Origin: a virus
Strand: one strand, 5' to 3'
IMG/VR virus record: IMGVR_UViG_3300028550_004390
Span: 1-64,000 of that record
DNA: 64,000 nt
Position numbers and translations under genes: made by a program. Of the stretch, positions 1-36,371 are shown piece by piece (the stretch's first letter is position 1; every line of letters begins with the position of its first letter). A model generated the notes under the pieces. The model made no database searches. It was not told where the DNA came from and saw only the letters and a program-made list of their open reading frames with translations.

Positions 1-147
1 TGTAAACTCATTACATCCACAGTTTTCGCTATTGATAGCTTCAATAGTAATGTCGCCTGTTATAGCATCCCAATTACTTATAGCTACATCACACTGTGCT
101 GCCATTGTCGGCGCAAATAAGGCTAATAGGTATATTAATCTACGCAT
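1..147 (-). CDS. Secreted hypothetical protein, 5' part only
   Basis: The first 49 codons of a gene that continues past the left window edge. It starts at an ATG at 147 and overlaps the 3' end of the next upstream gene by 13 bp. The N-terminus (MRRLIYLLALFAPTMAAQC) is a clear Sec signal peptide: two Arg, a hydrophobic core and an AxA-type cleavage site. The mature part begins CDVAISNWD and has a CGC motif, the style of secreted Bacteroidetes proteins. The fragment is too short to assign a function. Confidence 0.6.
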   Translation of the reverse strand, partial: MRRLIYLLALFAPTMAAQCDVAISNWDAITGDITIEAINSENCGCNEFT

Positions 148-509
148 CCTACTCCATAATTTGATAAGAATGCTTGCAGATCAGAGACTCCAACTATTCC
201 ATCCCCATCAAAGTCATATGGACATGGAACCAATACAGGTTCTTGGCAAGATGCATATGCAGGGTGTTCTGTTAGTAATGGATATACAAAACCATCTCCA
301 TTTAAAGCAAATGCAGTTCCTATGTCTGCACAGAATATGATGGTATATCCTCCAGCAGGTAATCCGAAGTTGTGAATATTTCCATCACAATCTATATATT
401 CAAAGTTAGTCCATTTAGTAGCTCCTACTGAGCTAAAAACATGTTGGTTGCATTGTCCAAGGGCTATCTGTGATAACGCCATGGCAGTTATTAGTAATAA
501 ATGTTTCAT
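135..509 (-). CDS. Secreted protein with dockerin-like Ca-binding motif
   Basis: A 124-residue protein with a signal peptide (residues 1-18, ending ALGQ). Near the C-terminus is DFDGDGIVGVSDLQAFLSNYG (about residues 99-119, written here in full as one 21-residue loop-helix: DFDGDG, IVGVSD, LQAFLSNYG), the DxDxDG calcium loop plus helix of a dockerin or EF-hand half. Flanking Cys residues (PCPYD, GVGCVD) could form a disulfide. Such C-terminal loops are common in secreted marine Flavobacteria proteins. The middle matches nothing I recognise. It probably acts in the periplasm or outside the cell; its role is unknown. Confidence 0.65.
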   Translation of the reverse strand: MKHLLLITAMALSQIALGQCNQHVFSSVGATKWTNFEYIDCDGNIHNFGLPAGGYTIIFCADIGTAFALNGDGFVYPLLTEHPAYASCQEPVLVPCPYDFDGDGIVGVSDLQAFLSNYGVGCVD

Positions 510-6344: not shown

Positions 6345-6394
6345 GTTAATATACGACATTTATGGTAAGAATAAAAATTTATTGAAGGGTATTT
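6345..6394 (-). promoter_or_regulatory. Class A promoter element
   Basis: Coding strand: AAATACCC, AATAAATTTTTATTC, 12 nt, then GTCGTATATTAAC. It overlaps the end of the glutamine synthetase gene and leads the small gene at 6331. Confidence 0.65.
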
Positions 6395-7407
6395 ACAATT
6401 GCTGCTGTTGCTAAATATGGATCCACATTTGATGACGGTCTGCGATCTTCTAAATAGCCTTTCCAAGTTTTACCTACATTCTCTGGAATTCTTATGGAAG
6501 CTCCGCGATCACTTACCCCATATGAAAATTTACGAATATCTTGGGTTTCATGTTTTCCGGTAAGTCGCTGGTCATTGTATAGTCCGTAGACCTTCATGTG
6601 CGTGTCGTGTTGGTCCTCTAAACGCTCGCATATAGCTTCAAAATAGCTTTTTCCACCCTTACCTCTAGTCATTTTTGTGCTGAAGTTAATATGACATCCA
6701 GACCCATTCCAATCTCCTAGCACAGGTTTTGGATGTAGTTCTATATCTGCTTTAGCATCTTCTGCTTCACGAATTAACAAGAATCTACTTAGTATTAGAT
6801 TGTCACAAACTTCTAAAGTGTCTTTACCAAACAACTGGAATTCCCATTGCCCAAGAGTAACCTCGGCATTTACCCCAGTTATGTCCATTCCAGCTGCTAT
6901 GCATTGTTCGGCATGTTCTTCACATATCCATCTGCCAGCTACATTCTTATTTCCAGATGCACAATAGTTTTCACCTTGTGGTGGTGGAGTTCCTTTTGCT
7001 GGCCATCCCATTGGTCTTCCATCTTTGAATATAAAGTATTCCTGTTCAAATCCCCACCAATACTGGTTCTTAGTATATAGGTCTTTGAACTCTCTTAGTT
7101 TGGCTCTGGTGTTTGACTCATGAACTGTTCCGTCGGCATTGTAGACTTCACACAAAACTAATAGATGAGAATTATCATATCCATTTGGGATTATTCGTAC
7201 AGGTTTCAGAACACAGTCAGAACTATTTCCATCGGCCTGTTTAGTAGAACTACCGTCAAAGTTCCATTCTGGAAGATCTTCTACCATAACTATGGATGAG
7301 TCCATGTCATTTATATATCTTACTTTACTTCTGATGTTCTGGACATCATAACCATCAAGCCAAATATACTCGGCTTTTAGGACTTTTTGATTTAAATTAT
7401 TTATCAT
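6379..7407 (-). CDS. glnII: Glutamine synthetase, type II (GlnII)
   Basis: A 342-residue enzyme that would make glutamine from glutamate, ammonia and ATP. All conserved blocks of the eukaryote-like type II family are visible: EWNFDGSS, EQEYFIF, NAEVTLGQWEFQ, GDWNGSGCHINFS, RLTGKHET, SDRGASIRIP and DRRPSSNVDPY. The length is typical, so it looks intact. The frame extends 23 codons upstream into another gene; the ATG at 7407 (MINNLNQKVLKAEYIW) fits the family start. GlnII occurs in many Bacteroidetes, so recent host acquisition is plausible. It would feed amide nitrogen to nucleotide synthesis or to the AsnB encoded at 40117-41478. Confidence 0.9.
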   Translation of the reverse strand: MINNLNQKVLKAEYIWLDGYDVQNIRSKVRYINDMDSSIVMVEDLPEWNFDGSSTKQADGNSSDCVLKPVRIIPNGYDNSHLLVLCEVYNADGTVHESNTRAKLREFKDLYTKNQYWWGFEQEYFIFKDGRPMGWPAKGTPPPQGENYCASGNKNVAGRWICEEHAEQCIAAGMDITGVNAEVTLGQWEFQLFGKDTLEVCDNLILSRFLLIREAEDAKADIELHPKPVLGDWNGSGCHINFSTKMTRGKGGKSYFEAICERLEDQHDTHMKVYGLYNDQRLTGKHETQDIRKFSYGVSDRGASIRIPENVGKTWKGYLEDRRPSSNVDPYLATAAIVNTLQ

Positions 7408-7630
7408 ATTTAGGCCATAACTTTTTAGGACAACTTTCAGATGCCCAGATTGTTTTTGTGCGGATACGACATCCACATTCTTTACATTTTATTTTCTTCG
7501 CATCAAAGCTTGGGCAGGAAAAACATATAAGCTTTCTCCTCAACTCTACTTCAAATGGAACATCTGTGGGATCTTTCGATCTGCGCCACAACGCCTTTAT
7601 AAATGTGAATACTACTTTAATAGTTTTCAA
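7397..7630 (-). CDS. Cys-rich zinc-binding-like phage protein
   Basis: A 77-residue basic protein with CFSCPSF, CKECGCRI and SESCPKKLWP, a pattern of two knuckles ending CPxxxW that recurs in small proteins of T4-like phages. It likely binds zinc; the role is unknown. The start appears to be a TTG right after the upstream TAA, because no ATG lies near the N-terminus. Confidence 0.6.
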   Translation of the reverse strand: MKTIKVVFTFIKALWRRSKDPTDVPFEVELRRKLICFSCPSFDAKKIKCKECGCRIRTKTIWASESCPKKLWPKYDK

Positions 7631-7999
7631 TTACTTCGCTTTCTTAATGAGTGCTAATGCATTTTGTATTTCTGATAGCTTAAGCTGTAGTTCCTTTGTC
7701 TTCTCAGCTAGATTGATTACTTCAGCCGAGTAATATCCGGTGAAATATACTTCACTCTTCTTTGAATCTACAGCAGCTTTTGCTCTTGCATGCTTTGGGC
7801 TATCCGCTTTATAATAGCCTACTGTTCTCATGTGACGTCGTCCGTCCAGTTCATATACTTCATATGTGCCCTTCTTCTTTGGACTGTAGGTCGAGAAAAA
7901 ATCTTTTTCCGCTTGGGGAGTTTTATCTTTTGCAAGGGTGTTAAGAGCGGCTAACTCTTTGTCATATACACCTTCATTCATAATATCTTTTAATTTCAT
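7631..7999 (-). CDS. Putative capsid-targeted internal protein
   Basis: A 122-residue protein opening MKLKDIMNEG. This N-terminus matches the CTS-like leader seen on other proteins of this block: a short amphipathic start, then hydrophobic-x-Glu and a small residue. By analogy with T4 internal proteins, the prohead protease would cut after Glu9. The rest has a compact beta part (GTYEVYELDGRRHMRTVGYY) and a C-terminal coiled-coil-like helix. It follows directly after the polyprotein gene. The family and activity are unknown. Confidence 0.55.
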   Translation of the reverse strand: MKLKDIMNEGVYDKELAALNTLAKDKTPQAEKDFFSTYSPKKKGTYEVYELDGRRHMRTVGYYKADSPKHARAKAAVDSKKSEVYFTGYYSAEVINLAEKTKELQLKLSEIQNALALIKKAK

Positions 8000-8010
8000 T
8001 TTTATAGTCC

Positions 8011-11000
8011 TTATTTCAAACGGCTAAGTGCTTTACCACACGCTTTGTTGAATTTGTTCATGTGCGGTACAGCTTCTTTATTCTCTCGTTCTTGTATAAG
8101 CTCTATGGCCATATCTAAGTGGGCTGTTATACCTTCATACGTATTGTCGTCATTATCAATAAGCCATTCCTCAAATGCTTCTGAGAGCTTGTATAGCTTT
8201 TTCTCACCCATACTAACGGTAGCAAACTTGCCCAAACCTAATAGGGATTTGATAGGTAGATCTTGAAGTTGAGCTTCATTAACTGACTCTACTATTTTAG
8301 CCTTTTTCAATATCTTCATTACATAGTCTTCAGACGAATTGCCAGAAGAGGGTGGAGAAAAACTACCATTAGCAGTGACGGACCCACCAACATGTTGACC
8401 TCCAAGGAGTAAGTAGTATCGATCGCCAAATCGAGTAGAATTATTCGAACCCTTAGGGACTTTTACTATTTCCCATTTACCCTTAGCAACTGTCTGTTCC
8501 TTTCCTTCATTAACTGATTCACTGAATAGCGTTTCGCCAGTGTTTGATTCAATCGATATAATAGCATTTGGATATTGTTTTTGTAATTCATTAAACGCTG
8601 CTGGAACTGCTGCTGGTGTGTCAACTAATTCTTGTTTAACAACCATACCGCTATTAATTACTACGATCGTTACAGGATAGCTTCCCTTCTTTGCAGCTTT
8701 ATGTATCTTACCTCTACTAGCTTCATTTATTTTGCCTTCTTGGTATAGATCTTTACCTTTATGCTTCTTACCAGTTTTAGTTAGGTTCCTAGCTAGGATT
8801 GGGTGAAAGCTTTTTGGTCTTGAGTTAAATTTAACATAAGCTACTTGGTTAGCACCACTGCCGCTTACTTTATTAACCAACCCAACTTCCTTTCCTGAGC
8901 CAACATAGTCTCCTTTACGAATTTCAGTTAGTTTGCCTTCTTTAACAACCAAGCTAGCAATTGTATCAATAAACTTTATTGACTTACCAGTCTTAGTGAA
9001 TTCCACTGTCCATTTCCTTGGGTCCTTTTTGGCTCCATTGGTACTAACAGTAACTGATTTACCATCATATTTTCCATTTGCTTCACCATTCTTGAACATG
9101 AACTTCATGAACCTGTCTCTTTCACTAGTATTTTGTTTGCCAATGTTAAAATCTTCTTCAACAGATTCTTGGGCATCTTTCCAAGCCTTAGAGTCTGGGT
9201 ATTCGTCATCGCCTGGCTTTGCAGGAGATTCACCCCTAGCCTTTTTCTTTCTGACATTGTCCCAAAGACCTTCAGAAACTGATTCCTTAATTCCTTCTAC
9301 AACAACCTTGTTTTGTCTGAACATCATGTCCAACCAATCTTGAGGCTGCCAACCTGTGTTTCTGCCATAGTTTCCATTGCCTTCCTGATCTACTTTAACT
9401 CTATAGCCATCACCATGAGGATTAACAATTTTCCATTTAGCACCAGTTTTGAATTTTAATATGTCACCCTTTTTAAGAGTTACTTCGGAGATAGATTCCA
9501 CCTTACCTTTGGATATCTTAGTTCTAAGCTTTTTAAACTTGTCGTTAATATAGTAGTACCCATATTTACCTGATTTACCACCGCCTAAACCTTTAATATG
9601 ATTATAAAGAGCTTTATAATGTCCAGACCCTGTTGCGATAGAATCTATTAGCTTTTTAATTTTAGGATCTTCAGAAAGTATTTTAATAATATCTGCATCA
9701 GTTAACTCATCATTAATGTACTTAGCAACTTGAGCTGTCTGAAAGTCCTGGAGTTCTTTATACTTTATCTTCTTGCCAATGACAGGTAATAGCTTAGCAT
9801 AGTTGTTGAATCCTTTTTTGAATATCTTACCTATGCCTTTGACATCACTTTTTGTTTGTCCCATTAGTTTTGTAAACTTATCATCAGACATTAAAGCAAG
9901 TCTTCCTAGAATTCCAGTAGTAGTTATTAGCGCTGCAACTACCGGTAATGATAGCACCATCTCATTAAGAACCCCTTCAGAAACTGATTCATTATAATCT
10001 TCAATGTCAGAATATCTAATTTCGTGTTCTTCACCATCTTCATCAACTCCAAAGATAACTTTATCTTGCCACATATCCCAAAAATCCTGCCCTCCTCTAC
10101 CAGAGTTGGATTCGATATTACTATCGTCACCTTTCTTAGGATTGTAGATGACATATTGTTTTCCTCTATTGACAGTAATCATACCATCAGCCTTTTTCAT
10201 GGCTTTCAACAATGAATTCTTGTTGAATTTAGCTTCGTTAATTGATTTATTCTTTTTCATTATTTTAGCTTCCTTTAAGCTGTATTCCTTTTTAAGCTTT
10301 TCCCAAACAGTTTTGTATTTACTTGATAGCTTTTCACGGCCAAGTACTTTGGATAGCATAATCTTATTGAGAGCAAGTTGCTCATACTCTGGCTCTTTGT
10401 CTCTATTGGCTTTTAGTCTAGACTTCTTTTCAACATCTTTAATAGCAAGCTTGATCTTGTGCTCATCTTTATTGATGTGTTTGAATTCTGCTTCAGTTAA
10501 TTTGCTTTCAGTAAGTTTTTTCATTAGCAACGTTTGAGTCAATGCATTTGCATCTACTGGTCCGTATTTTTTACCATCTTTAGTAAAGGTTACGTAATCT
10601 GTTCTTCCACTAGCTTTTTTCTTAACGTCCCAACCAAGTTTTCTACCAATTCGCATTGCTTTAGAAGCTCCTAAAGTTGCTACTTCATTAACTGATTCCT
10701 TTACGCGATTGCTTGTAAAGGCTCTCTTAACGGCCTTGTAAAAGTCTTTATGGTATTTCTTAGGAACGTGGTCTGACTTTAAGTAGTCATATAGGTCTTG
10801 CTCGTAACTCCAAGATTGATTTGCTGCTTGGTGTTGAGTTGAACTCCACCTTGCAGCTATATCTAGCATAGTAGCTACATCACTGGGATCCATGAAGTCA
10901 CCAAAACCTTCTGTTAATTCCACTGAACCTTTCGCATACTTACTTGATTTGGAGCCTAATTCTGCTTTATTCCTTTGGTGGTTATGTTTAAGACCACCCT

Positions 11001-12828
11001 TTTTTAAGAGATAGTTAAATGTCTTTATGGTTATGGATGGTCCGACTTGGGATGGAAGCTTCTTAAAGTCTTTTACTTTACCTAAAGCATTACCTTTGAA
11101 TTTGACGGACAAGTTTCCAAAACCAAATGCAATCAAATCATCTAATGTACTGGTCCAAGAACCAATACCCTCGGTAACCGATTCTTTTTTGATTAAGTCT
11201 ATAGTAGCTAAAGCTAATTTCTTCAATTTATCATCCCCATTCTTTTCAGCTTTTACAAGAGAAGATTTAGCAATTTTTAAGCGATCTTCTTTTGATAATA
11301 CTTCATTAACTGATTCGTCTAGATCTAGATCCCAACCATACTCTACATATGCAATTGCGTCATCTGGGTCCATATTAAATTTCTTAGCAGCCTTTAAAAC
11401 AATATCTCTTGTTATTTTGGAGTTTGGTATCTTAGCGATTATTTTACTAAATCTAGCATCGACACCTACTTCGGGGTTGACCATTGTTTTTTCAAGTATT
11501 TCACCTTTGCCTAGATCAAATCTTAAACTAGGAAACTTAGCAATGTCTACTGCAGTACTACCTCTAAGGGATACTTTCATATTAAATTTCTCGCCGTTTT
11601 CATTCTCAACCTCAAATACTTTTTCTGCATTTGATTTCTGACCGTAGCCTGTAATAGTGTAGGTTCCTTTCTCAGTTTTGACCGTACTACCAATCTTAAG
11701 CTTCTTAGCTGCTTTAGGAGCCATCATAGCTTCATTCATCGATTCTCCTATGGTATCTCCTTCTATTCTATTGAACATTATTCCATACACATCACCCTTT
11801 CCAAAATCAACGTTAGCCATATCTTGCATCACTTTAACGACTTTTCCCTTTCTTCCATCCATATATAAAATGTCTCCAACTTTTACTGGTGTGTTAGGAT
11901 TACCTTCATTAACCGATTCATTAGCCATTTGGGTTAATGCTTTGTCAATCTGACTTGCTGCCTTTGGATTAGTTTTGTATTGGTCAAGACCTTGTAACCA
12001 AGCTTGATATGATTTTTCCTTGTAATTACTTTTAGGTGTTATTTCTAGGGTTTTACCATTAGATGCTTTAACCATTATCTTATTCGGTCTAGTCTCTTCA
12101 TGCCAAGATTTAACTGTAAGGCCTTCATTAACTGATTCGGTTTTTTTTCTGACCTCATCACTAACCCATTTCTTTTCGCTCTTAGACAATTGCTCCCAAT
12201 CTTTTTTGAATTTCTTTTGGGCTATCTGATCTACGTGGCCAGTAAAAAATGATTCTTTAACTGATTCATGGGAGAGCTCTTCGCTATCGTCATTGTGAGG
12301 ATCTCCAGTCATAAGAGTACCATCAGGCATTTTATGAGTTGGTCCAGTCCATTCCTTACCATCTTTTGTATAGTGTTTTTGGCCTGGTCCTTCATTAACT
12401 GATTCTTTTAATTTAGATATGCTCCAAAATTTATTTTGATAGTCTGCATAACCATCTAGGTATTTCTGTGCATCCTTTAGGGTTTTAAATTTATAGGCTT
12501 TAGAAATCTTCCGATCAGATACCCACTTTGGACCTTTTGAGTTATCCCTGACTCGCCAACCAATATCTTTTACATATTTAGGACTTCCAGTCTCCTTACT
12601 TTGAATAACATAATATTCTGCACCTTCATTAACTGATTCTTTAAGGTCAAGTGCCTTGGCAATAGTCTCTCTAAACTCATCTAACTCATCGTCATTAAGC
12701 TTTCTAAATTCTGATCTGAGTTTAGCAACATATTTGTCTGCTAGGTCCTGACCCTTACCTTCGGTTATTTGATCAACTAGTTGGTTGACTTCTTCACCTA
12801 TTATTTTTCTTAAATCTGATGGTTTCAT
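8011..12828 (-). CDS. 1605-residue modular polyprotein with repeated protease sites
   Basis: A giant protein built of about 21 modules separated by a recurring junction, most often ESVNEG. The Glu before each cut is residue 23, 68, 146, 235, 308, 366, 509, 553, 640, 715, 779, 865, 951, 1115, 1186, 1225, 1302, 1369, 1441 and 1518, followed by G, A or V (D or I in two weaker sites). Each fits the T4-type prohead protease rule (I/L/V-x-E, then G/A). Modules are 39-164 residues, unlike each other; several look like small beta barrels (VKVGDILYMDGRKGKVVKV; LKKGDILKFKTGAKWKIV), others are helical, and the module at 952-1115 has a hydrophobic helix. I infer a capsid-packaged precursor cut into many small internal proteins. 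No signal peptide. It ends just before the class A promoter-led gene above it. Confidence 0.85.
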   Translation of the reverse strand: MKPSDLRKIIGEEVNQLVDQITEGKGQDLADKYVAKLRSEFRKLNDDELDEFRETIAKALDLKESVNEGAEYYVIQSKETGSPKYVKDIGWRVRDNSKGPKWVSDRKISKAYKFKTLKDAQKYLDGYADYQNKFWSISKLKESVNEGPGQKHYTKDGKEWTGPTHKMPDGTLMTGDPHNDDSEELSHESVKESFFTGHVDQIAQKKFKKDWEQLSKSEKKWVSDEVRKKTESVNEGLTVKSWHEETRPNKIMVKASNGKTLEITPKSNYKEKSYQAWLQGLDQYKTNPKAASQIDKALTQMANESVNEGNPNTPVKVGDILYMDGRKGKVVKVMQDMANVDFGKGDVYGIMFNRIEGDTIGESMNEAMMAPKAAKKLKIGSTVKTEKGTYTITGYGQKSNAEKVFEVENENGEKFNMKVSLRGSTAVDIAKFPSLRFDLGKGEILEKTMVNPEVGVDARFSKIIAKIPNSKITRDIVLKAAKKFNMDPDDAIAYVEYGWDLDLDESVNEVLSKEDRLKIAKSSLVKAEKNGDDKLKKLALATIDLIKKESVTEGIGSWTSTLDDLIAFGFGNLSVKFKGNALGKVKDFKKLPSQVGPSITIKTFNYLLKKGGLKHNHQRNKAELGSKSSKYAKGSVELTEGFGDFMDPSDVATMLDIAARWSSTQHQAANQSWSYEQDLYDYLKSDHVPKKYHKDFYKAVKRAFTSNRVKESVNEVATLGASKAMRIGRKLGWDVKKKASGRTDYVTFTKDGKKYGPVDANALTQTLLMKKLTESKLTEAEFKHINKDEHKIKLAIKDVEKKSRLKANRDKEPEYEQLALNKIMLSKVLGREKLSSKYKTVWEKLKKEYSLKEAKIMKKNKSINEAKFNKNSLLKAMKKADGMITVNRGKQYVIYNPKKGDDSNIESNSGRGGQDFWDMWQDKVIFGVDEDGEEHEIRYSDIEDYNESVSEGVLNEMVLSLPVVAALITTTGILGRLALMSDDKFTKLMGQTKSDVKGIGKIFKKGFNNYAKLLPVIGKKIKYKELQDFQTAQVAKYINDELTDADIIKILSEDPKIKKLIDSIATGSGHYKALYNHIKGLGGGKSGKYGYYYINDKFKKLRTKISKGKVESISEVTLKKGDILKFKTGAKWKIVNPHGDGYRVKVDQEGNGNYGRNTGWQPQDWLDMMFRQNKVVVEGIKESVSEGLWDNVRKKKARGESPAKPGDDEYPDSKAWKDAQESVEEDFNIGKQNTSERDRFMKFMFKNGEANGKYDGKSVTVSTNGAKKDPRKWTVEFTKTGKSIKFIDTIASLVVKEGKLTEIRKGDYVGSGKEVGLVNKVSGSGANQVAYVKFNSRPKSFHPILARNLTKTGKKHKGKDLYQEGKINEASRGKIHKAAKKGSYPVTIVVINSGMVVKQELVDTPAAVPAAFNELQKQYPNAIISIESNTGETLFSESVNEGKEQTVAKGKWEIVKVPKGSNNSTRFGDRYYLLLGGQHVGGSVTANGSFSPPSSGNSSEDYVMKILKKAKIVESVNEAQLQDLPIKSLLGLGKFATVSMGEKKLYKLSEAFEEWLIDNDDNTYEGITAHLDMAIELIQERENKEAVPHMNKFNKACGKALSRLK
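8275..12762 (-). repeat. Dispersed junction repeats inside the polyprotein gene
   Basis: About 20 short in-frame repeats encode E-S-V-N-E or close variants. Many share the same 15-16 nt on the coding strand (GAATCAGTTAATGAAG), for example near 8506, 10684, 11302, 12124, 12391 and 12625. Spacing is irregular (117 to 492 nt), always a multiple of three. The identical nucleotides, not only amino acids, suggest spread by recombination or recent duplication of the seams. Confidence 0.8.
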
Positions 12829-13319: not shown

Positions 13320-13333
13320 TATATATAAATATC
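13320..13333 (-). promoter_or_regulatory. Class C (late-type) promoter element
   Basis: Coding strand GATATTTATATAT, about 17 nt before the ATG of the holin-like gene, overlapping the stop codon of the gene above. It matches the elements at 21181, 50532, 53043, 61855, 62993 and 63847. Confidence 0.6.
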
Positions 13334-13673
13334 AAAAACCATTCATTATAGCTTCACTTATTGCATCTTGAATTTCATCTTGTGTGACTTCTAATACCAT
13401 CATTATGTTTGCTTGAAACCTTGCTACTTCAACACCATCATTAAATACTACCACCGATGGTACTACTACGATCTTGTGTTCTTTCTGTGCAGCTGTGTTG
13501 GCAAATATATCGATCCTTAGGGTTTCGCAGTCTTCCAGGGCTTCTAGGAATTCACATTTAGTTGGCGAGAATGGAGCATTGAACTCAACCACCTCTATTC
13601 CTTCACCTTGAATTTCTTGAGTATAAACCATTGTTGATATGCATATTAATAAAAACGCTAAAATGTATTTCAT
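13332..13673 (-). CDS. Secreted thioredoxin-fold protein lacking CxxC
   Basis: A 113-residue protein with a signal peptide (MKYILAFLLICISTMVYTQ). The mature part follows the thioredoxin fold: VVEFNAPFSPTKCEFLEAL aligns with the WCGPC helix region, and VPSVVVFNDGVEVARF with the cis-Pro strand. The redox motif is reduced to a single Cys (SPTKC), so it is unlikely to be a normal disulfide reductase. It may be a periplasmic binding or structural variant. It lies in a cluster of envelope genes. Confidence 0.65.
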   Translation of the reverse strand: MKYILAFLLICISTMVYTQEIQGEGIEVVEFNAPFSPTKCEFLEALEDCETLRIDIFANTAAQKEHKIVVVPSVVVFNDGVEVARFQANIMMVLEVTQDEIQDAISEAIMNGF

Positions 13674-14330: not shown

Positions 14331-15398
14331 TTAGAATATTACATAGTTGACGCCGATAGAAAAATCGTGCCAAGCTCTGTTCCAGTATTTGTTATATTTT
14401 CCTTCTGCAAACACTCCAAGGTGCTTATCAAATTTATATCCAAAAATTAAACCTCCTGAGAAGTCTGTCCATTGTCCATCATTGAATTCATGATAGCTAA
14501 ATTCATTGTTGCCTTGTATATGGTATGGCATTAGGTTACCCCAAGAATGTAACCAAAAGTCTTTAGTGTAGTAATAGTAATCAAAGCCTACGACTAATGA
14601 ATGTTGTAGGTTGTTAGCTAGTTTATTCCTTTCTTGTTCTGTATAGTCAGCTAATACATCAGGTATAACAACACCTTCCCATATCTGGATATTCTCTGCT
14701 ACTAGAGTTCCTGAAGGGTCATAGTATGTTTCTCCACCTATTCCGTCAAAGTCTATTGTATAACCTTGTTGCAATGCTAGATCTGTATAGTGTAGATTAC
14801 CATTTGACAATAGCCAATCTGATAGAGGATCATACCCATAAGGTTCTGATAGTCTTTGTACTGTTCCAATATTTAGGGATAGCTTTTTGCCTATGTTATA
14901 TCTATACCTCTGTGAAGACTCGAAGTATTCTATATCTGCAAAGCCATCTTGTAAATATTCTACTTTTGCTATCCAATCATCAGCTACATACCTAAGGAAG
15001 TGATGCTGATTTAGAAAGTTAGTTCCTTGCTGTCTTGTGTAGTCACCTTCAAATAAGAATTCAAAGCCTTTTATCTTACCAATCGTTGCAGCATCTGCAT
15101 ATGAATTTTCAGTTCCATCATAAAATACTTTTTCTCTATTCTCATATCCCAATCTAGCAATCTTTCTTATGCCGAATGTAATTGAATAGTCGAATGGTGT
15201 TTCAATGACTTCTGTTTGTAATCCATTTGTAATAGAATATACATCTACATCAGATATAGAATTTCCCCCATTTACTGCACCATAGAATGTTGCAAACTTG
15301 AAAGTCTTCTTTAGGTTCTTATTGAATGCACTTTGCTCCTGGCTTATTCCCAAGATAGGGATTAGAAGTAATAGTACTGATAATAAAAGGTTTCTCAT
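14331..15398 (-). CDS. Outer-membrane beta-barrel protein
   Basis: A 355-residue protein with a signal peptide (MRNLLLSVLLLLIPILGISQ) and alternating aromatic/polar strands through its length (LVVGFDYYYYTKDFWL, FSGGLIFGYKFDKHLGVFAEG). It ends FSIGVNYVIF, with the terminal aromatic residue typical of BAM-inserted barrels. It would sit in the host outer membrane. A phage gene of this kind could block or alter receptor use, or change permeability. It starts with an ATGA overlap on the Ntn hydrolase gene, so the two are coupled. Confidence 0.7.
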   Translation of the reverse strand: MRNLLLSVLLLLIPILGISQEQSAFNKNLKKTFKFATFYGAVNGGNSISDVDVYSITNGLQTEVIETPFDYSITFGIRKIARLGYENREKVFYDGTENSYADAATIGKIKGFEFLFEGDYTRQQGTNFLNQHHFLRYVADDWIAKVEYLQDGFADIEYFESSQRYRYNIGKKLSLNIGTVQRLSEPYGYDPLSDWLLSNGNLHYTDLALQQGYTIDFDGIGGETYYDPSGTLVAENIQIWEGVVIPDVLADYTEQERNKLANNLQHSLVVGFDYYYYTKDFWLHSWGNLMPYHIQGNNEFSYHEFNDGQWTDFSGGLIFGYKFDKHLGVFAEGKYNKYWNRAWHDFSIGVNYVIF

Positions 15399-16300
15399 TT
15401 CTTTATATCCATTTTTTTGTTTTTTATGTATTCAACCATAATCTTTATCTTAGGCTTATACCAATCCGGAGTCCTGTCTATTATACCAAGGTATTCCGAC
15501 TTCTCTTCGTCCATTCTAACAGTTATCTGGAGATCTGTCAAGTTTAAAAGGATTTGGCTAGATGTTGATAGAACATCCTTATCGGTTGAGTTTTGCACTT
15601 TGTCTTTGTCTCTATAAGGATTGTCCCTCATATTCACTGGATAGTAGCCGCTTAGGCCATCTAATATATCTAGTGGGTTTTTAGCTTTAGTTAAAACTGC
15701 GTGAGCAATATTCCATCTTGATTCTGATGATTTCCTATTTGCCCCGGATGTATATCCTGAATCTTTGTATTCGTAACCATGATTAGTCCTAACATGGTTT
15801 AAGCTTCTATCCATTTTATTTATCGTTGGAGAATGCTTAGAGGTCATTTCTATAGAGACAGAGTTTTTAGGGTCTGCTATGAATGTATGCCCCTTGACAC
15901 CAATATCTAGTTTATCCTTTCCAAAAAATTTAATTAGGGATTCAATGGACTTAGCGATTGTTGGATAGCTTAAAGCTTTTCTAATTTTGAGACCATCCTC
16001 AGAGACTTTACCTTTGTGCTTAATGATCTTCTTTTCTTTCTCATCAGCATTTACCATCAATGCTGAATTTAGAATGCCTATTCCTGCAGAGTTCATACCT
16101 TCAGACCAATCTGTTTCGTCGTCCAATATGTATACCAATTCAATATCACCTATCAATTCTCTTACAACATTTACCTTAGCATCGTAAGCTCGGTCACGAT
16201 TCTTTGCTAATAATACTTTATTACCTAGTACTGAATGTGTTATTATGCATTCATTTAGGGTGGCTTTAGGTTTTATTAATATGTTTTTGAGCTTAATCAT
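15395..16300 (-). CDS. Predicted Ntn hydrolase with capsid-targeting leader
   Basis: A 301-residue protein. Residues 1-17 (MIKLKNILIKPKATLNE) resemble the cargo leaders of this block and end in L-N-E. Residue 18 is Cys in CIITHSVLGNKVLLAKNRD, which fits the choloylglycine hydrolase / acyltransferase (C45-like) Ntn family: nucleophile Cys, then a KNRD/GRNxD motif. Later NSAGIGILNSAL and SLNHVRTNHGY fit the same fold. Cutting after Glu17 would free the N-terminal Cys and so activate the enzyme. It would hydrolyse an amide; the substrate is unknown. It is coupled by ATGA overlaps at both ends. Confidence 0.65.
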   Translation of the reverse strand: MIKLKNILIKPKATLNECIITHSVLGNKVLLAKNRDRAYDAKVNVVRELIGDIELVYILDDETDWSEGMNSAGIGILNSALMVNADEKEKKIIKHKGKVSEDGLKIRKALSYPTIAKSIESLIKFFGKDKLDIGVKGHTFIADPKNSVSIEMTSKHSPTINKMDRSLNHVRTNHGYEYKDSGYTSGANRKSSESRWNIAHAVLTKAKNPLDILDGLSGYYPVNMRDNPYRDKDKVQNSTDKDVLSTSSQILLNLTDLQITVRMDEEKSEYLGIIDRTPDWYKPKIKIMVEYIKNKKMDIKK

Positions 16301-16599
16301 TTTATGATTCTTTTTATGGCTTGTACTGTGAACGGATACGCCTTACCCTTTCCCTTTTCATCCCATATAACAATTTCTGATTTGTTGGTCTTTATTTTTA
16401 GTGCTGCTTTTGCCATAGTTAAAGCATTCCTATAATCAAACACCAAAGGGTTGCCATCAACACTTGTCGTATGCTTTTGAATCATACCATCTCTATGGAT
16501 AAAATAAGGGTCATCTCCACTTCTTTGGGATATCTTTATTTGGAAATCATAGTAGATAGAATTCTTAGCTTCAGTTAATATGTCTTTAAGCTTGATCAT
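16297..16599 (-). CDS. Putative capsid-targeted internal protein
   Basis: A 100-residue basic protein opening MIKLKDILTEA. Cleavage after Glu10 (L-T-E then A) is predicted, the same position as in T4 internal proteins. The mature part has beta and helix stretches (DFQIKISQRSGDDPYFI; ALTMAKAALKI) and no recognised domain. It overlaps both neighbours by ATGA. Confidence 0.55.
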   Translation of the reverse strand: MIKLKDILTEAKNSIYYDFQIKISQRSGDDPYFIHRDGMIQKHTTSVDGNPLVFDYRNALTMAKAALKIKTNKSEIVIWDEKGKGKAYPFTVQAIKRIIK

Positions 16600-17129
16600 T
16601 TACCATACATTCTTTTTATTACGGTTCCACCTTTCTTAAGCTTTCTTTCATAATAACCATCTTCAAGGTGTTTAATAAACTTAGGACCAACCATCTTTTC
16701 AATTTTCTTTTTATCCAAGACTACGGGTGCACCTTTAGATGCCATAATTTGATCCATTTTTTTACTGCCTTCTAGCCTATATCCGGACTTAACCATGGCG
16801 ACAGCTTTTTTAACTACTGCACTTTTTGCTGCACTTTGACCGTCAGTTGCTAATAGCTTAACCACCTTACCTCTTGTGAATATAAATGCATCTGGCATTG
16901 GGTCTTTATCTACATCTATTAACATTACTATTTCATAACTACTTTGTAGTTCACTTGCAGAGAATGCTGATAGTTGTAGACCTTCAGCTGAATAAACTGC
17001 ACTATACATCTTGAATAGTTTGTCCATTATCCTTTCGTCAATAGATGAAAGCTGTTGGGATATCCACTTTTTCTTAGGGTGGTCGTCTAAGTTATAGTCT
17101 TCTTTTAATATGTCTATTAGTTTAATCAT
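16596..17129 (-). CDS. Putative capsid-targeted internal protein
   Basis: A 177-residue protein with start MIKLIDILKEDYNLDDHPK. The frame opens earlier, but the ATG at 17129 shares one base with the upstream TAA and yields the same leader as its neighbours, so I take it. L-K-E then D is a weaker cleavage site than in the neighbours. The middle (YEIVMLIDVDKDPMPDAFIFTRG) looks like an alpha/beta fold; the C-terminus is basic (GGTVIKRMYGK). No family recognised. Confidence 0.55.
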   Translation of the reverse strand: MIKLIDILKEDYNLDDHPKKKWISQQLSSIDERIMDKLFKMYSAVYSAEGLQLSAFSASELQSSYEIVMLIDVDKDPMPDAFIFTRGKVVKLLATDGQSAAKSAVVKKAVAMVKSGYRLEGSKKMDQIMASKGAPVVLDKKKIEKMVGPKFIKHLEDGYYERKLKKGGTVIKRMYGK

Positions 17130-18019
17130 TACCATGCCTTGCAAGACCAATATCCTGCTGATGTTTTATCTTTCTTCTGGTCACACTTATGTCTTGCTCT
17201 AAATGATTTTCTTGCATCAGGATTATCCTTTCTGATCCTTTGGGTTTCTTGTCCTGCTTTCTTAGCGGCTTTACCACCTTGACCAAAGTGAACAACTTTT
17301 ATATTTCCAGATGATGGATCTTTTACATAGACCTTAAACTTCTTTTGGTCACCTTGCATAGGTTTATTAAGCTTAACCTTTCTGCCTTTATACTCTGCCT
17401 CTTGAAATACAACAGGTTCTGAATGCTCTACTAGTTCTATTCTTAAAGAGCTATTTTTATATATTGATTTTTCCATGCTTTCCTTTATTAAGCTTGTTTT
17501 AGATTTAACTTCAGGATGTCTTTTTAACATTTTATCTACTGCTGCTATATTTTTAGAACTGTCGTCCATAAAATACACTGTGTCATATCCTTTTTTAATT
17601 TGTCGTTCAATCCAATCTGCTTTAACTTTTGGATCGGCACTACCTACCGGTACAACATATGCATCTATACCAACAGATCTTAAGAAACTAGAAACAGGAG
17701 CTCCTAAAGATCTTGCAGTTAATATAGTCACCTTCCTTGCACCCTTAGAAGATCTTCTGGCTTTATCTAATTGCTTTCTTAATAGATCTGCATTCTTTTT
17801 AATTAGCTTGGGATTCTGTAATGGTCGATCGAAATCTTTGAAATCGAACTCTTCTTCTGGAGCAGCCTTGTATACTGCAAACTGAGCAGGGTCTAGCTTC
17901 TTAACTACCTTACCATTTTTTGTGACATATATCCATGCATCAGATTTTGCAATAGTGTCGTCGAAATCGAATACACTTAATACTTTGCCTTCCTCTAATA
18001 TGCCTTTGAATTTAATCAT
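17129..18019 (-). CDS. Capsid-targeted HAD-family phosphatase fusion
   Basis: A 296-residue protein. Residues 1-10 (MIKFKGILEE) are a cargo leader, cut predicted before Gly11. Residues about 13-175 form a HAD fold: nucleophile motif VFDFDDT, Ser/Thr motif VTILTARS and acidic motif VYFMDDSS. The C-terminal 90 residues (KFKVYVKDPSSGNIKVVHFG, RKSFRARHKCDQKKD, YWSCKAW) are a basic Cys/Trp-rich domain seen in many marine T4-like phages, of unknown function. It would be a phosphatase (possibly on nucleic acid ends) injected with the DNA. Confidence 0.7.
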   Translation of the reverse strand: MIKFKGILEEGKVLSVFDFDDTIAKSDAWIYVTKNGKVVKKLDPAQFAVYKAAPEEEFDFKDFDRPLQNPKLIKKNADLLRKQLDKARRSSKGARKVTILTARSLGAPVSSFLRSVGIDAYVVPVGSADPKVKADWIERQIKKGYDTVYFMDDSSKNIAAVDKMLKRHPEVKSKTSLIKESMEKSIYKNSSLRIELVEHSEPVVFQEAEYKGRKVKLNKPMQGDQKKFKVYVKDPSSGNIKVVHFGQGGKAAKKAGQETQRIRKDNPDARKSFRARHKCDQKKDKTSAGYWSCKAW

Positions 18020-18075
18020 AATGATGTGTCAGGGAACCAGTTGTCATTTTCTAATATGTTTTCTGGATCCTTCAT
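18016..18075 (-). CDS. Micro-ORF of 19 codons coupled on both sides
   Basis: The frame MKDPENILENDNWFPDTSL runs from an ATG overlapping the stop of the T9SS protein gene (ATGA at 18072-18075) to a TGA overlapping the ATG of the HAD gene (18016-18019). Both joints use the ATGA coupling typical of this genome. It may be a real micropeptide or only keep ribosomes moving between the two genes. Confidence 0.4.
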   Translation of the reverse strand: MKDPENILENDNWFPDTSL

Positions 18076-20546
18076 TGCTTTAATATCCTTTTACTTATTC
18101 TAATCTCATCAGCTACAATAGTCATAACGTATATCCCAGTAGGATAATCACCTAAGCTTATCTCCTTTGAAGTTTGAGATACTATTTTTTTACCATTAAT
18201 ATCATAAACTTCGATCTGTACGTTTAGTCTTGTATTTACTATAAATATATCATTAGAAGGGTTTGGGTACACTACGATCATTTTACTATCAATATCATCT
18301 ACACCTGCCGGCCATCCTAATTCGCAATAATCATACATTGATTCACATGAAGCATCCCATTCTGTAGTACAACAATAGTCGTCTACATCTATTACCCAAG
18401 CAAAACATCCATCGTTTAGATAGTATGGTAAGCCTTCACCTTGGTAGCATCCTGCATCATATAGACAGCTGCCATCTTCTGTATTAACAAACTCATCGTA
18501 GTTAGCTGCTGATAGATCTGTGCATCCCATCATAATTGTTTCGCAGAAGTTCAATGGCTCATAACATGCAGTAGAGTCATAGTTAAATGCTGTGGGGTTA
18601 GTACATCCTGAAACATAACAACATGTATTATCTAGGGAGTTTGCTAAAGGATTGAAGTTGAATGCTGCAGTATCTGTACAACCATATTCAAATGGTATAC
18701 ATGAATCATTGTCTACATTCGCTAGTGGGTCATAATTAAACATTGAAGGGTAAGTACATCCAAATACCGGGAGAATACATGAATCATCATCAGTATTAAC
18801 TGCTTCGTCATAGTTAAGGGCTGTAGCATCAGTACAACCATAAATAAATGGTATGCACTCGTCATTAGTATTAGCATTAGAATCATAATTAAATGCCAAA
18901 TCATTCATACATCCATAGATGAATGGAGTGCAATTAGTTGCTACGTTTGCTGACGGATCATAATTAAACTGAGTGTCATCCATGCAACCAAATGCAGCCA
19001 ATATATCACAAGAGCTATCATCGTAGTCAGCATCATATCCTTGGGTGTAGAATTCTAAGTAACCTGCTTGAGTGCATCCAGGTAAATAGTAACATTCACC
19101 ACTGTCTGTATTTGCACCATCTTCATAATTTACAGCAAGATTGTCCATGCATCCTTCAACATAAGACTCACAGTAATTTAAACAAGTAGGTGTTCCTTCA
19201 TATACAAATGGAAATTGCTTAAGGAGGTCTGTCCATGGGTTAGTTCCACTTTGGAGAACGATACCATTAGGTCCTTCCAATCTAAAACCACATTGGGCTG
19301 CAGTTGTTGCTGAATTGCCACTTGTAAAGAAATAAACGTTAACCTCTTCATTAGAATTAAGATCTAATCCAAAAGATTCTTCATAACCATCGTCTGGTCC
19401 CATTTGGAAAGGACCGTAAATCTGATCTCCTTGAGTTATTCCTAGCCAACTACCGAACCAGCCATCTGCTCCACCGTCTGTAATGATAAGATCGTATTGG
19501 CATGTTGGATGAACGTCCATAGTATTTGCTAGGACATCATAATTAAACATTGTAGCATCTATACAACCTAACTGTATTGGAGTGGTGCATGTGTAATCAT
19601 CTACGATAGCAAGTGGATTATACTCGACATATCCAGGAGTCGTGCATCCTTCAAGTTGGTATGGTGTGCACTGAGGAACTATATATGGTCCTGATGACAC
19701 TGTATCGAATTGTTGTTGTCCACCTATAGCAAATATACTATCGCCACATGCAGTAAATACATTGAAATACCCATCTACTCCACCCCAACATGATCCGCAA
19801 AGACCATCACCAAAAGTATCATAAATAATTGTTTCAATGGTATCACCTTCAGCAACACAAAAGTAAGCTGATTGTGGAACGTCTGGGATGGTGAATCCTG
19901 TAGACGATGCGACTATATTGCTATTAACTATTAATTCCCAAGATGTTTCATTAGGGTAGTTGTCAGGAGTAGTAATAATAATAATGCCAGTTTCCCCCAT
20001 ATCGCAAGGGACTGGAAGAAAGTTACATGATGAGGGTGCATTTGCCCATGGGTTGAAGTTTAAAGCTTCAGACTCCATACATCCATAAACTAAGCAGCTA
20101 TAATCACAAGACCCATCGTCATTGGTAGCATTCTCATCATAATTACATGCTGCAATGTCTGCACATCCATATAGTGGTGGAGGGCAAGCTAGAAGATCGA
20201 AATATACAGTTGCTGTAGGACCTGCAAAGTCATATACAAACGTATTCAATCCACATGAATTAGATAGCCCGAAGAAGCCTTCACCATATGCACAGCAAAT
20301 ACCATCTCCAAACTCGTCATATATAACAAGGTTGTATTGTCCAGCATCGAGATTAACCATAGTCTCGTAATATGAATTGCCATCATATGTAGGAGAGGTG
20401 GCTACAATGTTAGTGTCTTGGTATATTTCCCAAGTAGTCTCACTGCCATAATTGTCTGTTTGAACTACTACATTTACCCAGCTGTCCTGTGCTACTGGGA
20501 TTATTGGTAATAACGCCAGCAGTAGAAATATTAATAAGTTTCTCAT
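18072..20546 (-). CDS. Large secreted Cys-repeat protein with T9SS sorting domain
   Basis: An 824-residue protein with a signal peptide (MRNLLIFLLLALLPIIPVAQ). The first 440 residues hold beta-rich parts (NVVVQTDNYGSETTWEIYQ and a second copy near 190). There are about 13 repeats of the form GC(T/M)D-x-x-A-x-NYD...A-x-x-DD-x-SC, common in marine Bacteroidetes surface proteins. The last 75 residues (VYPNPSNDIF ... GIYVMTIVADE ... ISKRILKQ) are a type A T9SS C-terminal sorting domain. It would be exported by the host Sec and T9SS machines and attached to or released from the cell surface. The role could be adhesion, shielding or a secreted virion-release factor. It is coupled to the endolysin gene by ATGA. 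Confidence 0.85.
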   Translation of the reverse strand: MRNLLIFLLLALLPIIPVAQDSWVNVVVQTDNYGSETTWEIYQDTNIVATSPTYDGNSYYETMVNLDAGQYNLVIYDEFGDGICCAYGEGFFGLSNSCGLNTFVYDFAGPTATVYFDLLACPPPLYGCADIAACNYDENATNDDGSCDYSCLVYGCMESEALNFNPWANAPSSCNFLPVPCDMGETGIIIITTPDNYPNETSWELIVNSNIVASSTGFTIPDVPQSAYFCVAEGDTIETIIYDTFGDGLCGSCWGGVDGYFNVFTACGDSIFAIGGQQQFDTVSSGPYIVPQCTPYQLEGCTTPGYVEYNPLAIVDDYTCTTPIQLGCIDATMFNYDVLANTMDVHPTCQYDLIITDGGADGWFGSWLGITQGDQIYGPFQMGPDDGYEESFGLDLNSNEEVNVYFFTSGNSATTAAQCGFRLEGPNGIVLQSGTNPWTDLLKQFPFVYEGTPTCLNYCESYVEGCMDNLAVNYEDGANTDSGECYYLPGCTQAGYLEFYTQGYDADYDDSSCDILAAFGCMDDTQFNYDPSANVATNCTPFIYGCMNDLAFNYDSNANTNDECIPFIYGCTDATALNYDEAVNTDDDSCILPVFGCTYPSMFNYDPLANVDNDSCIPFEYGCTDTAAFNFNPLANSLDNTCCYVSGCTNPTAFNYDSTACYEPLNFCETIMMGCTDLSAANYDEFVNTEDGSCLYDAGCYQGEGLPYYLNDGCFAWVIDVDDYCCTTEWDASCESMYDYCELGWPAGVDDIDSKMIVVYPNPSNDIFIVNTRLNVQIEVYDINGKKIVSQTSKEISLGDYPTGIYVMTIVADEIRISKRILKQ

Positions 20547-34420: not shown

Positions 34421-36082
<1,662 letters not shown>

Positions 36083-36092
36083 TTATATCTCT

Positions 36093-36371
36093 TTATACTA
36101 TGGTTAATAATTCAGGTTCTCTTATGACTAGGTATTCCTCGCCTTCATGGTCAAACTTTTTTGCCCCATGCTTTGGGTATATTACGTGGTCTCCCACTTT
36201 TGTTTGCATATCGCCACGGTCTCCACTCATTAGGTGAAAGCCAGGACCTACCGCGATTATTTCCCCGACCATTGTTGCCTCTTGGGACGTGTCAGGGATT
36301 ATTACTCCGCCAGTTGTGATGTCTTGTGCATCTACGGGCTTTAAAACTACCTTATCGGAAATTGGTTTCAT
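36093..36371 (-). CDS. groS: Co-chaperonin GroES (10 kDa)
   Basis: A 92-residue GroES: KPISDKVVLKPVDAQDITTGGVIIPDT covers the first strand and the mobile loop (TTGGVIIPD), and VGEIIAVGPG and VIYPKHGAKKFDHEGEEYLV follow the family. The loop Ile-Ile-Pro contacts the GroEL apical domain. It lies 10 bp upstream of groEL. Together they suggest a phage with its own folding chamber, perhaps for the major capsid protein. Confidence 0.93.
   Translation of the reverse strand: MKPISDKVVLKPVDAQDITTGGVIIPDTSQEATMVGEIIAVGPGFHLMSGDRGDMQTKVGDHVIYPKHGAKKFDHEGEEYLVIREPELLTIV

Follow-up and report, generated by a model that had tools for sequence, protein, structure and literature searches.

A putative precursor polyprotein of internal head proteins, with tandem protease-type junctions, in a marine T4-like phage and its shuffled relatives in uncultured viruses

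T4-like phages abound in the sea, and the contents of their heads are mostly unknown because internal proteins evolve fast and carry hypothetical annotation. The internal proteins of T4 are packed with the DNA, which they contact via lysines, and IPI*, a 76-aa anti-restriction protein, is injected (PMC3012670). Residues 1-10 of IPIII are enough to target foreign proteins; L/I-X-E is the sequence after which the protease gp21 cuts, gp22 being cleaved between Glu and Ala (PMC9026906), while the cut sites of Alt are ITE-6 and LTE-619 (PMC5694885).

The window analysed here, the whole stretch of 64,000 nucleotides, comes from a marine T4-like virus that infects bacteria. It contains a gene (Table 1) that starts with ATG and encodes a basic, lysine-rich chain (180.0 kDa, pI 9.36); the earlier note on this DNA had its coordinates right and missed that it lies on the minus strand. 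The chain holds 13 ES[V/I/M][N/T/S]E motifs (2000 shuffles gave 0.013 on average and never more than 1) and 22 instances of the looser [I/L/V]-x-E followed by G/A/V (shuffle mean 4.6, maximum 13). With about 20 junctions in tandem in one ORF, the gene departs from the one-cargo-per-gene arrangement of T4-type internal proteins. Near-identity of about 20 junctions had been claimed, which holds for some 13-14 of the ESVNE type, the remaining seven or so being only looser variants (QITE↓G, ELTE↓G, KLTE↓A, SINE↓A, KLTE↓I, KINE↓A and KLSE↓A, the arrow marking the predicted cut). Since LKE, LRE and IKE are frequent by chance, it is uncertain where exactly the weaker junctions would be cut, and cleavage may fail there. 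The tandem-site pattern was absent from all other genes of the 64-kb window. The observation of a tandem-site gene is confirmed, and four findings of this analysis are absent from the earlier note: the strand of the gene, the shuffling of modules, stand-alone relatives and homogenisation of the junction DNA. The gene does not adjoin head genes, and the record to which the window belongs is without them.

The chain begins with a short propeptide that ends in [L/I/V]-x-E, as in T4-type internal proteins, and this putative targeting sequence (MKPSDLRKIIGEEVNQLVDQITE↓G) is similar to the N-termini of single genes in L275 (MNKERLKNIIREEISSILLGE↓A) and L001 (MKLTEQKLREIIQSEIKSLNE↓G). Single genes with targeting sequences are also present in the window, having pI 9.3-9.8, and most other sampled genes have pI 5-7. 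The phrog_7595 domain of one of them (17129..18019) is common to other targeting-sequence genes. This conserved C-terminal domain, AR(K)SFxxRHxC...YWSC, was seen in window 17129-18019, L035:4299-4850, L104:12275-12796 and L140:12001-12318, is labelled as HVA1 family in some records, and is shared by polyproteins and targeting-sequence proteins of phages that differ greatly. In L001:4540-6028, three tandem single genes have the common N-terminus MKLTE[Q/S]KLREIIQSEIKSLNE↓G/A in front of unlike bodies, one of them being a repeat protein of the NGDISKWNVSKVTDM type.

Table 1. Coordinates of the polyprotein gene, its predicted modules and the neighbouring single genes in the window (all on the minus strand)
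Feature	Coordinates (strand)	C-terminal site or N-terminal sequence	Remarks
Whole polyprotein gene	8011..12828 (-)		1605 aa, 180 kDa, pI 9.4, 14.6% Lys
Residues 1-23	12760..12828 (-)	MKPSDLRKIIGEEVNQLVDQITE↓G	putative N-terminal capsid-targeting propeptide, role inferred
Module 24-68	12625..12759 (-)	ESVNE↓G	
Module 69-146	12391..12624 (-)	ESVNE↓G	weak sub-threshold match to LPD34 (polyvalent-protein domain)
Module 147-235	12124..12390 (-)	ESVNE↓G	homologue in L001 polyprotein
Module 236-308	11905..12123 (-)	ESVNE↓G	homologue in L101
Module 309-366	11731..11904 (-)	ESMNE↓A	weak match in protease-fused chain of phage MA9V-1
Module 367-509	11302..11730 (-)	ESVNE↓V	homologue of C-terminal part in L041
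Module 510-553	11170..11301 (-)	ESVTE↓G	
Module 554-640	10909..11169 (-)	ELTE↓G	
Module 641-715	10684..10908 (-)	ESVNE↓V	homologues in L024, L039, L064, L080; helical domain predicted, pLDDT ~90
Module 716-779	10492..10683 (-)	KLTE↓A	
Module 780-865	10234..10491 (-)	KSINE↓A	L001 homologue
Module 866-951	9976..10233 (-)	ESVSE↓G	four homologues
Module 952-1115	9484..9975 (-)	ESISE↓V	
Module 1116-1186	9271..9483 (-)	ESVSE↓G	
Module 1187-1302	8923..9270 (-)	KLTE↓I	phrog_11180 match; homologues in L042 and L277 head operon
Module 1303-1369	8722..8922 (-)	KINE↓A	homologue in L277:15927-16568
Module 1370-1441	8506..8721 (-)	ESVNE↓G	found in 8 loci; predicted fold H-E-E-H-E-E
Module 1442-1518	8275..8505 (-)	ESVNE↓A	
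C-terminal module 1519-1605	8014..8274 (-)		homologues in L001, L005/L014; weak internal site KLSE↓A at residue 1550
Single putative internal protein	7631..7999 (-)	MKLKDIMNE↓G	targeting sequence; pI 9.4, 16% Lys
Single gene	15395..16300 (-)	MIKLKNILIKPKATLNE↓C	related N-terminus; pI 9.3
Single gene	16297..16599 (-)	MIKLKDILTE↓A	targeting sequence; pI 9.7
Single gene	16596..17150 (-)	MIKLIDILKE↓D	targeting-like N-terminus behind short extension; pI 9.5
Single gene	17129..18019 (-)	MIKFKGILEE↓G	targeting sequence; C-terminal phrog_7595 domain; pI 9.8

Other genes of the window include a 365-aa gene (6379-7476, minus strand) with both glutamine synthetase domains above the Pfam cut-off (PF00120, PF03951), which is unusual in a phage, and two adjoining genes (34421-36082 and 36093-36371, minus strand) that by eye resemble GroEL- and GroES-like chaperonins. 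Apparent N-terminal signal peptides were seen in four genes (18072-20546, 14331-15398, 13332-13673 and 135-509, minus strand), which possibly encode exported or surface proteins of the phage; the 824-aa one is very acidic (pI 4.1, 0.8% Lys).

Protein searches led to a second polyprotein, L001 (1040 aa), having the same kind of junction and some shared modules in a different order, and to more viruses with the same modules in chains of 2-5 or behind one N-terminal site; other parts of the chain used as queries brought no additional virus. A scan of IMG/VR with a degenerate DNA pattern (a pair of ESV[N/T]E sites separated by some 70-80 codons) found at least 119 viral stretches, each in an ORF with at least two in-frame junctions and a maximum of nine. 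The identical scan of 257 Gb of bacterial and archaeal genomes returned 13 stretches and no genuine case, all 13 being rejected as SVTE-type low-complexity repeats (Macrococcus and others) or for having no ORF with two junctions. Together with the window and L001, the matches listed make up a collected set of 141 polyproteins in 122 loci (111 after removal of 90% duplicates), in which the loci are partly redundant fragments; the set is a biased sample and gives a lower bound on abundance. Its long-chain viruses are all uncultured. Among the phage isolates searched there was no long ESVNE chain, several single modules were likewise without a match, and the pooled common modules matched isolates only over a 31-aa stretch in three cyanophages. 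The huge phage LR756500, PTm1, MA9V-1 and three other records were rejected as further cases, with single scattered junction matches and no tandem series. Judged by sequence, the same design with its pieces shuffled is present in more than 100 uncultured viruses and, because they share it, these viruses probably load many head proteins from one exchangeable gene.

Among the matches listed, 308 of 483 junctions (64%) have Ala or Gly at position P1', versus 13% in the background, P1' having been left free both in the scan pattern and in the counting; the enrichment (p ~1e-145) comes from a statistic that treats related sequences as independent. P3 is Val/Ile/Leu and P2 is Asn/Thr/Ser, which is partly built in by the search. 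With Glu at P1 as well, the junctions conform to the rule of T4-type prohead proteases, as had been proposed from the window's gene alone, and their agreement with the S77 substrate rule, together with the small P1' residue, predicts cleavage. Sites of this type are also seen in the capsid protein that the phage encodes and at the N-terminal targeting sequences. In AT-rich phage genes Glu, Ser, Val and Asn occur frequently, which would favour a chance pattern or a low-complexity repeat artefact; this explanation is next to impossible, being refuted by the shuffles, the cellular-genome control, the P1' enrichment and the modules, which are as unlike one another as had been claimed (3 of 147 chains hold any module family twice).

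The end of the window's record and contig G031 (L274-L276, IMGVR_UViG_3300028550_004391) have 4.9 kb in common at 99.3% identity (99.26% across 4441 bp, 100% across 488 bp), so that both are assigned to the same phage species. The head genes of G031 include terminase, portal, a gp23 capsid protein, an S77 protease (E 7e-33 in Pfam, 2e-53 in PHROGs) and a scaffold-like protein of acidic composition; the contig also encodes a 244-aa protein with several sites and single targeting-sequence genes. The gp21-like protease, which the earlier note had recommended seeking outside the window, was therefore found in the same species, and the pair of gp23 capsid protein and S77 protease that marks a T4-like phage is present by way of this contig. 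The tail sheath of the window phage is also T4-like, with Flavobacterium phage immuto as the nearest isolate (45% identity). The gp23 protein of G031 has QLISE↓ANN about 10 residues upstream of the conserved GVALPLVRRIF, which we take to be the position of the T4 gp23 maturation cut, and the S77 protease has sites of its own near the N-terminus (QMINE↓S) and near the C-terminus (AVNE↓S). These capsid and protease sites match the polyprotein junctions.

In the polyprotein contigs tested (25, mostly the longest), S77 was found in 19 and gp23 in 18, and the polyprotein lies at most 6 kb from the S77 protease in 9 of the 19, mostly directly adjacent. The gene order in L104 is terminase, portal, protease, polyprotein, scaffold, capsid, with which L090 and L035 agree over their extent; separate acidic scaffold-like genes are present in L104, L090, L035, G031 and G045. 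Just upstream of the S77 protease of G045, the gene L277:15927-16568 has an N-terminal site followed by a module 52% identical to 1303-1369. A GMGxxxxPGNPG...TGSGD motif, possibly a core-binding element, was seen at the N-terminus of the capsid protein and in small unrelated proteins (L011:14276-15943, L004:8436-9020, L006:9293-9682).

The 728 modules among the matches listed (median 78 aa) fall into 414 families, and 46 of the 52 families found in at least three loci, again among the matches listed, have differing neighbours. Alignments between loci end within -2 to +6 of a junction in 40% of cases versus 6.7% for random positions, part of the 40% arising because the motif itself aligns, although homology does end there. 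Homologues of module 866-951 begin exactly after SINE↓, TITE↓, SVTE↓ and NVNE↓ in four relatives. The homologue of module 780-865 in L001 comes directly after a T4-IPIII-like N-terminal targeting sequence (FVNE↓AEFKN), as does that of module 1370-1441 in L005/L014 (MKYFKTHSEFLNE↓A). Since modules begin exactly after either, an internal junction and an N-terminal cleavage site are positions that can replace each other. In L005/L014, the homologue of 1370-1441 is followed by that of 1519-1605, with module 1442-1518 cleanly missing between junctions. Phages with modules 44-59% identical to those of the window have hardly any other genes in common, which indicates that modules move horizontally. 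A close relationship of the window phage to G003 was rejected, only 4 of 46 genes being in common, and the modules have thus moved between distant phages.

The junction DNA is homogenised as well. Within genes, ESVNE is encoded by the identical 15 bases in 54% of pairs versus 5% predicted from codon usage, and between genes identical codon strings reach 23%, codon-identity figures that are somewhat inflated as the scan pattern partly left out AGY serine; in the window, GTT is used at 9 of 9 ESV[N/T]E junctions. Because this homogeneity extends to synonymous sites, the junction may be read as a module-exchange seam that spread by copying or recombination, and the data suggest that the junction DNA is a recombination seam. 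A pure seam would account for the homogenised DNA equally under an uncut beads-on-a-string protein, in which the junctions are only linkers and seams and the chain functions undivided, whether in the virion or inside the infected cell. We consider this unlikely, as a linker needs no Glu at P1, no Val/Ile at P3 and no Ala/Gly at P1', sites of the same kind are found in the capsid protein of this phage and at N-terminal targeting sequences, and the modules also exist as single units behind targeting sequences.

The modules have a median pI of 9.4, with values above 8.5 in 71% of the 728, and several modules of the window polyprotein are neutral or acidic; the chain as a whole shares the basic, lysine-rich composition of T4-type internal head proteins. 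A cytidylyltransferase-type domain was found in targeting-sequence or site-containing proteins of two relatives. In L004:6077-7783 and L006:7971-9293, cytidylyltransferase/NMNAT-like domains (GRFQPFTLGH) occur with protease-type sites in the same proteins, which are possibly NAD-related enzymes carried in the head. The basic character and the cytidylyltransferase-type domains favour cargo over disposable scaffold. A prohead core or scaffold protein of the gp22/gp67 type, cut into peptides that mostly leave the head and with modules that are only disposable filler, would agree with the cutting of T4 gp22, gp67 and gp68 into multiple fragments (PMC5694885, PMC9026906), with a polyprotein flanked by protease and capsid genes in many relatives, and with the MA9V-1 protease, which itself continues into a many-site chain. 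It is nevertheless quite improbable, given that the same operons, and the window's species, have an acidic scaffold-like gene besides the polyprotein, and given the related proteins with cytidylyltransferase-type domains and modules that are mostly basic, diverse and conserved domains moving between distant phages.

In Pfam, no family was above the cut-off in the chain or its modules, the sole sub-threshold match being to LPD34, and the search of the chain against known families gave only phrog_11180, a weak and short match to a PHROG without assigned function; PADLOC gave no match. AlphaFold models of two multi-module stretches were good only where homologues exist (641-708, 1370-1438 and 1519-1605), which form compact domains, and the predicted structure of 641-708 had no significant PDB match. 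Because most modules match no known family, an anti-defence role is a guess. The LPD34 match, together with the shared principle of delivering many activities as a single chain, brings to mind the polyvalent proteins of Iyer et al. 2017 (PMC5512222), multidomain injected chains processed by their own embedded metallopeptidase. Such an identity is very improbable for this gene, with no peptidase or other defining polyvalent domain at the Pfam cut-off and with junctions that are uniform and of the external-protease type.

The gene is quite probably, on the combined sequence evidence, a precursor polyprotein of internal (ejection) head proteins of a T4-like phage, which would be cut at each junction during maturation. 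The earlier note's reading of the gene as a cut cargo polyprotein is thus supported at the level of sequence. In this process, the N-terminal propeptide would act as a capsid-targeting sequence and bring the entire chain into the prohead core. During head maturation, the S77 prohead protease (gp21 type) would cut every [V/I/L]-[N/T/S]-E junction behind its Glu, and one chain would give about 20 small, mostly basic proteins remaining with the DNA. The released modules would enter the host on infection and presumably counter host defences or help takeover. The near-identical junction DNA may double as a recombination seam, through which modules could be gained, lost and reordered. The broader proposal, to which we give even chances, is a widespread modular delivery system of uncultured T4-like phages, with a library of small cargo domains that each end in the same protease site written in near-identical DNA; in it, 15-17 bp would be both cutting site and recombination seam, the injected anti-host repertoire could be reshuffled by ordinary homologous recombination, and equal copies would come from one gene.

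The uniform junction offers a handle, since sequence alone then suffices to flag probable cargo of the head and to place its ends exactly, in more than 100 uncultured viruses. The 414 families of small domains become predicted injected proteins, testable against host defences. The locus also suggests a polyprotein strategy of dsDNA phages with a built-in exchange seam, and would be a natural design for the equal-ratio packaging of several foreign proteins into T4 heads.

Among known systems, the closest likeness is to T4 IPI/IPII/IPIII and Alt, which have an N-terminal propeptide, are cut after [L/I]-x-E and are small basic cargo; a gp23-type head and highly variable content are also shared with the T4 internal proteins. 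However, in T4 each cargo has its own gene with a site at one or both ends, whereas here about 20 modules have a site at every joint. Multi-site cuts by a prohead protease are known from T4 gp22, gp67 and gp68 and from the long propeptides of SPN3US/phiKZ, but what is cut in those cases is scaffold, core or propeptide material, most of it cleared afterwards, unlike the dissimilar, mostly basic, exchangeable domains found here beside a separate scaffold-like gene. Polyvalent proteins (PMC5512222) likewise combine many activities per delivered chain with strong mosaicism and are thought to be released as separate units; they differ in their embedded peptidase and large known domains, where the present chain has no peptidase, small unassigned modules and sites for a separate protease.

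ORF151 of Chryseobacterium phage MA9V-1 (1347 aa) is also similar, being an S77-containing chain that has many [I/V/L]-N-E↓S/A/G sites and in which one or more modules are weakly similar; it differs in that protease and chain are fused and the sites are not ESVNE. This phage (OR050627.1, L166:3567-7610) is cultured, and about 1150 further residues are fused to its S77 prohead protease; its virion proteins have been published by SDS-PAGE only (PMC10537231). The polyproteins of RNA viruses resemble the present gene in having a single chain, multiple products and uniform protease sites, but their proteins are unrelated, and here, in a dsDNA phage, the protease would act inside the assembling capsid. 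The earlier statement that no described phage polyprotein is built this way was borne out in the open-access literature, where a search of about 5.4 million papers gave no prior description of a tandem-site cargo polyprotein. All parts of the design were already known; it is their arrangement that appears new.
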